Assembly: GCA_945906965.1 (NCBI GenBank)
Contig: CAMDRP010000010.1
Location: 1 to 51,258 of the forward strand
Direction of reading: 5' to 3'
DNA: 51,258 nucleotides
From: Opitutus sp. GAS368
GTDB lineage: Bacteria > Verrucomicrobiota > Verrucomicrobiia > Opitutales > Opitutaceae
The notes under the pieces: generated by a model
Seen by the model: the letters and a program-made list of their open reading frames with translations, nothing else
Databases searched by the model: none
What the model was told of the DNA's origin: nothing
Shown: positions 7,462 through 9,204 of the stretch, piece by piece
How positions within the stretch are numbered: the first letter of the stretch is position 1
Layout: each line of letters opens with the position of its first letter
Made by a program: the position numbers and the translations under genes

Positions 7462-7836
7462 ATGATCTCCGCAGATTATATTCCCTTCCTGATCCAAGCT
7501 CTATTAGCCGGCGGCATTACCGCGTTTATCATCGGGGCGAGTCATTTTTTCGGTCAACGAGCCAAGCTCAACAAGATCAAGGACTCGGCCTATGAGTGCG
7601 GCGTACCTTCTGAAGGGATCGTGCATACGCGCTTCTCGGTGAAGTTTTTCCTCACGGCGCTTTTGTTTATGTTGTTCGATCTAGAGATCGTGATTCTTGT
7701 GCCGTGGACGTTTATTTATCGAGAGTTTCTGGCCAACCAGATCTCGATCATCGGGCCGGTGTTTTTCTTTATCGGCGTGCTGGTGCTCGGTTTGATTTAC
7801 GAAGTTAAGAAGGGCGCACTCGATTGGGAAAAGTGA
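7462..7836 (+). CDS. nuoA: NADH-quinone oxidoreductase subunit A
   Basis: A 124-residue membrane protein with three helices and the family signature YECGVPSEG around residues 45-53, followed by RFSVKFFLTALLFMLFDLEIV, the most conserved part of NuoA/ND3. It is a membrane-arm subunit of respiratory complex I. It stands alone here: no nuoB or other nuo gene follows, and the next gene (25 bases downstream) is the EIIA-DAC protein. The ATG has no obvious Shine-Dalgarno sequence. Confidence 0.95.
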   Translation: MISADYIPFLIQALLAGGITAFIIGASHFFGQRAKLNKIKDSAYECGVPSEGIVHTRFSVKFFLTALLFMLFDLEIVILVPWTFIYREFLANQISIIGPVFFFIGVLVLGLIYEVKKGALDWEK

Positions 7837-7860: not shown

Positions 7861-9204
7861 ATGCGGTTAGAAAAAATCATCGCCCGCAGCCGCATCATCG
7901 ATTTGCGGAGCGGGGATCTGCCCGGCGCGTTGCAGGAGTTACTCGCGGTGAGCGTGGCGAGTTTTTCAGACCTTAAGCCGGAGTCCTTGTTGAAAGGATT
8001 GTTGGCGCGTGAGAGCACGATGACGACCTACCTCGGGCTCGGGGTGGCGTTGCCGCACGTGCGGGTGAAAATGTCGCGGCGCTATATCCTCGCGATCGGG
8101 CGCAGTCGCGCGGGGATACGGCATGACGGGGCTTTGGCCGACGAGCGGGTGCATTTGATCGTGATGTTGATCGCCGGTGAAAAAGCCCGCGATTACCTGC
8201 AGGTGCTGGCTTCGATCGCGCGCCAGGTCAAAGAGCGAACGATGGTTGATGGCCTCGTGCAGGCCCCAGATCTGGATCAACTTTACGAACGTTTAGTGGG
8301 CGGTTTCGGCGGGATCCGGCCGGTGCAGACTCAGCAGAATCGCGTCAATCGGCTCATGTTGCGTGAGGCGCAGCGCGTCGCGAAGGGCGCGGCGTGTGAT
8401 GCGTTGATGGTTTTTGGCGACACGTTTATCGGCGGGATCGATCGCGCGGCCTTCAGCCTTAAGATGAAGACGATCTTGGTGACGCGTAACCCGATCGAGG
8501 CTGGCGACGACGAACGCGATTTTGCTGAGACGATCCAGGTACGATCGTTTTCCAATCAACGGATGGCACAGTTGCGCAGTGCGATCTTGGTGGCACTCAC
8601 GCGCGGGGTTTTAAAATTTACGGATCGCATTTGCTGCCTGGACGGCATGACGGGGAGTAACCAGTTCGACACGCTCGTTGTCGTCGATATCGAGCGCGAA
8701 TTCCAGACTTTGCTCACGGGACAGACCGCGGATCTTTTGCCCGAAGACGTGAAGCCGGAAGTGTTGGAGCGCGTGTTGGCCGTGGCCACCGAGCTTGCCG
8801 TGGAAGGACGCGAGGGTCGGCCGGTCGGGTGTTTATTTGTGGTGGGCGACTCCGAAAAAGTCGCCGCACTCTGCAAACCCCTCGTTTTGAATCCTTTTTT
8901 TGGCTACAAGGAAGAAGAGCGAAATATCCTTAATCCGTTCATGGATGAGACGGTGAAGGAATTTTCTTCCATTGATGGCGCCTTCACGATTCGCGGCGAT
9001 GGCGTGGTGGAATCGGCCGGCAGCTTGATTCAGGCGACCGATAGCAACCACTCCTTGCCCAGTGGTTTGGGGAGCCGGCATGCGGCGGCGGCGGCGATCA
9101 GTGTGGCAAGCAATTGCATCGCGATCGTTGTCTCCTCGAGCACCAGTCAGGTGACTCTTTTTCGGCGCGGGGTGATGTTGCCGCTCACGGAAAAACGCCG
9201 TTAA
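7861..9204 (+). CDS. Three-domain diadenylate cyclase candidate: PTS EIIA + pyruvate-kinase-C-like + DAC
   Basis: A 447-residue protein. Residues 1-150 resemble a fructose/PtsN-type EIIA domain and keep the phospho-acceptor His66 in LGLGVALPH. Residues 165-285 resemble the pyruvate kinase C-terminal fold (AKGAACDALMVFGD, then KTILVTRN, then LTRGVLKFTD). Residues 300-447 are a DisA_N diadenylate cyclase domain: EGREGRPVGCLFVVGD, the DGA motif at 372-374, and GLGSRHAAAAAIS at 402-414. The middle and C-terminal parts match the CdaZ-like layout. DAC enzymes join two ATP to make c-di-AMP. The canonical RHR motif reads RHA here (Arg406, His407, Ala408), so activity needs proof. There is no membrane segment. 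It may be co-transcribed with nuoA. Confidence 0.82.
   Translation: MRLEKIIARSRIIDLRSGDLPGALQELLAVSVASFSDLKPESLLKGLLARESTMTTYLGLGVALPHVRVKMSRRYILAIGRSRAGIRHDGALADERVHLIVMLIAGEKARDYLQVLASIARQVKERTMVDGLVQAPDLDQLYERLVGGFGGIRPVQTQQNRVNRLMLREAQRVAKGAACDALMVFGDTFIGGIDRAAFSLKMKTILVTRNPIEAGDDERDFAETIQVRSFSNQRMAQLRSAILVALTRGVLKFTDRICCLDGMTGSNQFDTLVVVDIEREFQTLLTGQTADLLPEDVKPEVLERVLAVATELAVEGREGRPVGCLFVVGDSEKVAALCKPLVLNPFFGYKEEERNILNPFMDETVKEFSSIDGAFTIRGDGVVESAGSLIQATDSNHSLPSGLGSRHAAAAAISVASNCIAIVVSSSTSQVTLFRRGVMLPLTEKRR

Follow-up and report, generated by a model that had tools for sequence, protein, structure and literature searches.

A PTS EIIA–diadenylate cyclase fusion protein conserved in its bacterial order, and its likely place in c-di-AMP signalling

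Little is known about what regulates diadenylate cyclases, and the fusion protein analysed here appears to have a likely input signal, PTS phosphorylation, built into it. An arrangement of this kind, with a PTS EIIA-2 domain ahead of the DAC domain, is reportedly described for the DacD class in the Corrigan and Gruendling 2013 classification and in the Galperin 2023 survey as well. Proteins of Lacunisphaera, Coraliomargarita, Puniceicoccaceae and Opitutae represent the DacD class, e.g. that of Lacunisphaera limnophila (A0A1D8AXP5) (PMC6741144). Our literature search found no experimental work on this class, nor any report of a diadenylate cyclase being controlled by the PTS. The DacZ protein of Haloferax volcanii is essential and makes c-di-AMP, and manganese is the only metal with which it is active (PMC6741144). 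For CdaA, the side chains listed as contacting ATP or the metal are those of Leu31, Asp71, Thr102, Arg103, His104, Ser122 and Glu124, the last being the metal ligand within the SEE motif; the third residue of the RHR motif, R105, is absent from this list (review, PMC7288161).

A three-domain protein encoded next to nuoA

The window, i.e. the whole stretch of 51,258 nucleotides that was analysed, harbours on its forward strand an intact ORF coding for a protein of 447 residues (positions 7861..9204; all features below are on the same strand). The original prediction described it as a fusion of an EIIA domain, a pyruvate-kinase-C-like region and a DAC domain in a single frame. Profile searches bear this out, with three Pfam domains that all score above their cut-offs: PTS_EIIA_2 at the N-terminus (PF00359, residues 40-145, positions 7978..8295; 5.6e-17, 62.5 bits for a cut-off of 27), DacZ_P (PF21755, residues 160-283, positions 8338..8709; 2.3e-27, 95.6 bits for a cut-off of 27.4) and DAC, or diadenylate cyclase, near the C-terminus (PF02457, residues 313-438, positions 8797..9174; 5.4e-21, 74.8 bits for a cut-off of 27). 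The EIIA domain also matches PtsN structures (1.5e-7) and probably spans residues 1-150. The best NCBIfam match is the haloarchaeal DacZ model (NF041371; E 1.2e-33, 116.7 bits, under its cut-off of 430). Fructose/PtsN EIIA models come next; the PtsN equivalog TIGR01419 reaches 42.4 bits, under its cut-off of 138.7.

An alignment-based structure model, for which 38 relatives were used, gives residues 157-283 a fold like that of pyruvate kinase C-terminal domains (Z about 12); the likeness first proposed for this region therefore holds at the level of the fold. Residues 295-446 match the structures of CdaA, DisA and DacM (Z 12-14.8). The protein thus has the layout of the DacZ superfamily, in which DAC comes after a PK_C-related DacZ N-domain, both by sequence and by the two folds. 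Most of the EIIA part has a pLDDT below 50, because the alignment was used without that part, and structure prediction of the three domains thus agrees with expectation for DacZ_P and DAC, while the assignment of EIIA rests on sequence. A single-sequence model of the 447-residue protein (pLDDT 30.8) was of no use. A Cys pair is present at residues 258-259 of DacZ_P (positions 8632-8637); C259 is found in 66 of the 68 relatives and C258 mostly within the window's order, and the pair is possibly redox or metal related.

The immediate upstream neighbour of the cyclase gene, 24 bp ahead of it, is nuoA (NADH-quinone oxidoreductase chain 3; positions 7462..7836; Pfam Oxidored_q4, 3.2e-27), its probable operon partner. 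An adjoining upstream nuoA in the same orientation recurs in 54 of the 68 relatives. The nuoA-dacZ pair is conserved across the order, and the fusions outside it have other neighbours. A scan of the window with Rfam gave no match, and a promoter scan nothing convincing.

We searched 387 genomes of the phylum for DacZ_P and found it in 67 of them. The window's order, probably Opitutales, accounts for most of these, with DacZ_P in 59 of 63 sampled genomes and an EIIA-like domain ahead of it in every case; the fusion is therefore order-wide and not a one-off, a fact missed by the original prediction. Outside the order, DacZ_P is present in eight genomes, and EIIA is fused to it in five (families f30 and f73). 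The succession EIIA-DacZ_P-DAC recurs in 64 of 68 relatives, which is far beyond chance; DacZ proteins without EIIA also exist. The copies from the window's order form one clade (support 100/99). The trees fit either one origin or two for the EIIA fusion. The 32 rows compared with non-EIIA DacZ all fall on one side of the tree, with a support of only 68/84, and one of them (L070) ends at a contig edge, so that its EIIA is not seen. The EIIA domains of the outside families cluster with stand-alone EIIAs (support 90/98). Two entries call for caution. The DacZ found in a Kiritimatiellae MAG (L041/L082, genome G347, contig JAQUPZ010000025.1) matches the DacZ of Smithella sp. D17 at 100% identity, and this contig is probably a Smithella contaminant. 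The long N-terminus of L056 has no Pfam match, overlaps antisense ORFs and is probably an over-extended frame.

Active-site motifs and c-di-AMP output

Active-site motifs were counted in an alignment of 68 relatives, 59 of them from the window's order. Asp372, Gly373, Arg406 and His407 are invariant (68/68), and the catalytic DGA (residues 372-374, positions 8974..8982) and R-H are thus in place. The original prediction had correctly located the DGA, the RHA at 406-408 (positions 9076..9084) and His66, and had taken RHA for an altered site that might denote a weak cyclase or a sensor. The GxRHRxA motif is indeed incomplete and reads GSRHAAA. However, residue 408 is Ala in 59 of the 68 proteins (57 of the 59 from the order) and Arg in none, and the corresponding motif is RHH in two annotated haloarchaeal DacZ and RHI in 76 Syntrophales DacZ. 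RHx with x other than Arg is therefore the rule among DacZ proteins. As R105 moreover lies outside the published ATP contacts of CdaA, we rejected the notion that RHA is a lesion. According to the alignment, the real departure of this active site is another one, missed by the original prediction: the (V/I)SEE motif is replaced by VSSS (residues 424-427, positions 9130..9141). S-x-S is found in all 68 proteins, so the metal-ligand Glu has become an invariant Ser (S427). Residue 426 is Ser, Ala or Gly in 54 of the 59 proteins of the order, a position that is still Glu in archaeal DacZ and in most of those from Syntrophales. This conserved loss of the metal-ligand Glu raises the question of how DacZ-type enzymes bind metal.

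The fusion is the sole DAC protein of the window's genome, as it is in 56 of the 59 genomes of the order that carry it. Two genomes of one genus (G223, C1:1029127; G310, C3:140153) code for a second, stronger DAC match of another type (open frame of 402 residues). The eight genomes outside the order also have a second DAC protein, which fits the DAC model much better than the first and in most cases has the usual CdaA length. A PgpH-type 7TM-HD phosphodiesterase is encoded in the window's genome. Among the genomes of the order, PgpH is missing in three of the four without DAC, compared with nine of the 59 with DAC (Fisher p 0.02 for their joint absence, kinship not being corrected for). Three genomes of family f3 (G102, G298 and G381) have neither.

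Six genomes of the same family as that of the window (L183, L185-L189) contain c-di-AMP riboswitches (RF00379) above the Rfam gathering score, and the sole DAC protein of each is an EIIA-DacZ fusion in which the motifs likewise read RHA and VSSS. The riboswitches are located upstream of, and correctly oriented with respect to, genes for KimA-like permeases in four genomes, Kup in one and a band-7 protein in one. One of these KimA-like permeases was compared with the PDB and matches the KimA structure 6s3k (E 7.5e-60); the remaining three resemble it and hit the same permease family. In some relatives, potassium uptake thus appears to be under the control of c-di-AMP, and the fusion therefore probably serves to link metabolic state to salt balance. 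A search of the window's own genome under strict filters gave no c-di-AMP riboswitch. Of the three domains, DAC is the best conserved in the nearest relatives, at 84% compared with 72% and 69%. Given a sole DAC protein accompanied by PgpH, the riboswitches of relatives and the joint absence of DAC and PgpH, we strongly infer that the protein is an active cyclase, and consider this very probable.

EIIA input and the proposed circuit

The window's genome codes for one EI, one HPr and three EIIA domains, and the PTS_EIIC profile, the sole EIIC family searched, has no match in it. The two stand-alone EIIAs adjoin ion transporters, CorA and a ClC channel with CBS domains, respectively (L079 1873-3330, L080 2562-4837). 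In the fusion, His66 (positions 8056..8058), within the motif GVALPH, aligns with the active His of PtsN and is the predicted phosphorylation site. Of 64 fusions, 60 retain His66 and the P-H motif and 63 retain R50. Where EIIA/PtsN proteins have a second conserved His, as seen in PtsN structures, the protein has Tyr112 (positions 8194..8196); 59 of the 64 fusions carry Tyr at this place, as do both stand-alone EIIAs of the genome. This second conserved histidine serves onward phosphate transfer to EIIB. The Tyr-bearing EIIAs therefore look like end acceptors of phosphate, that is, reporters. The link between the PTS and c-di-AMP put forward in the original prediction is thus plausible, as EI and HPr are encoded and His66 is largely kept. 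Phosphorylation of His66 is likely, in our estimate, and control of the cyclase by it is also probable, if somewhat less so.

In three members of family f3 (L066, L069 and L071), with genomes of 1.6-2.1 Mb, the EIIA domain is degenerate and has lost its His, and the cyclase is kept. EI is present in 71 of 71 genomes and HPr in 70 of 71, including those without His66, and we thus rejected a coupling between the loss of His66 and that of EI and HPr. In family f30 (L163 7277-14716, and L166), the fusion gene is clustered with genes for a zinc-ribbon EIIA, a radical SAM protein and an amino-acid permease-EIIA fusion; in L163, EI is also adjacent to this PTS cluster.

We propose that the cyclase is a working soluble enzyme of the DacZ superfamily and the only c-di-AMP synthase of the cell, whose DAC domain, in an oligomer, would convert ATP into c-di-AMP. 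The N-terminal EIIA would receive a phosphate at His66 from EI-HPr and retain it, since PTS_EIIC is unmatched and the second EIIA His is a Tyr. The phosphorylation state of EIIA, which would follow PEP/pyruvate and hence carbon and energy state, would together with a DacZ_P ligand set the output of the cyclase. c-di-AMP would restrain potassium import, in some relatives via the KimA and Kup riboswitches, and PgpH would break it down. Most likely, then, the fusion is the housekeeping c-di-AMP synthase of the order, gated by PTS phosphorylation, perhaps also by a DacZ_P ligand, and feeding potassium control. We give the whole proposal, an active sole synthase whose output is set by EIIA phosphorylation and limits potassium import, a probability of roughly 0.6. 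The domains, the motifs, the sole DAC, the PTS and PgpH genes and the riboswitches of relatives can be read directly in the genomes, and from these we infer activity, phosphorylation and control of the former by the latter. Several observations count against the proposal: the metal-ligand Glu of CdaA is a Ser and the adjacent Glu is mostly lost in the order, the window's genome has no riboswitch, the fusion itself is the one pointer to regulation by EIIA, and three relatives with a His-less EIIA keep the cyclase, EI and HPr.

This last observation fits an active cyclase in which EIIA is a structural or binding module that, whether phosphorylated or not, mainly docks partners such as transporters or kinases, with DacZ_P ligands setting activity. 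PtsN docks TrkA and KdpD in enterobacteria, the two stand-alone EIIAs adjoin the CorA and ClC genes, the second EIIA His is a Tyr, and some DacZ proteins have no EIIA. However, the retention of His66 and P-H in 60 of 64 fusions and of R50 in 63 of 64 suggests selection for phosphotransfer, and we regard this alternative as rather unlikely.

The altered motifs, RHA for RHR and SSS for SEE with the metal-ligand Glu included, could alternatively denote a degenerate or weak cyclase that acts as a sensor of c-di-AMP or ATP. We deem this very unlikely, as genomes that contain c-di-AMP riboswitches and PgpH have the fusion as their sole DAC, and as DAC is its most conserved domain. Haloarchaeal DacZ also lack RHR and SEE (they have RHH and SES), and yet H. 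volcanii DacZ makes c-di-AMP (PMC6741144). The loss of both Glu residues of SEE across most of the order might instead point to an altered metal site and to a product made in place of c-di-AMP or besides it, be it cyclic or a linear dinucleotide; c-di-AMP riboswitches in genomes where the fusion is the sole DAC make this more improbable still.

Beyond the preferred reading of a phosphorylation-controlled synthase, one may tentatively envisage a permease-free regulatory PTS that sets the sole c-di-AMP synthase, a DAC protein devoid of the metal Glu, and whose EIIA outputs form a PEP-driven ion and osmotic network. These outputs might comprise the EIIAs beside CorA and ClC, EIIA-DacZ and, in a related family, the EIIA-amino-acid permease. 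With a likely input carried by the protein and a likely output seen in the genomes of close relatives, where c-di-AMP riboswitches precede potassium importers, a circuit from carbon and energy state to potassium can be tested across the order through one gene.

Relationship to known cyclases and EIIA proteins

The fusion resembles euryarchaeal DacZ/CdaZ (DacY) in its PK_C-like N-domain followed by DAC, in being the single DAC of the cell, in the third RHR residue other than Arg and in the Ser that replaces the metal Glu, as seen in Haladaptatus DacZ. In contrast, archaeal DacZ have no EIIA domain, and their neighbour is mscS2 rather than nuoA. The SEE position also differs, with S-E-S in archaeal and most Syntrophales DacZ and S-S/A/G-S in the window's order. 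With CdaA/DacA, the Gram-positive type, the fusion shares the DAC fold, DGA, R-H and a GALI-like motif, here GCLF; unlike CdaA/DacA, it has no transmembrane domain and does not keep RHR and SEE. With PtsN (EIIA-Ntr) and fructose-type EIIA it shares the domain and the active His, and the location of the stand-alone EIIAs of its genome beside ion transporters is reminiscent of potassium control by PtsN. Unlike PtsN, however, it is joined to a cyclase, its second His is a Tyr, and its genome has no PTS_EIIC match.

The fusion and the DacD class are probably the same family, as they appear to match by taxon (Opitutae and other Verrucomicrobia) and by the architecture attributed to that class. The EIIA-DAC architecture as such is therefore already catalogued and not new. 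What the present analysis adds is the riboswitch-potassium output, the pattern of EIIAs beside ion transporters, the pairing with nuoA and the missing metal Glu.
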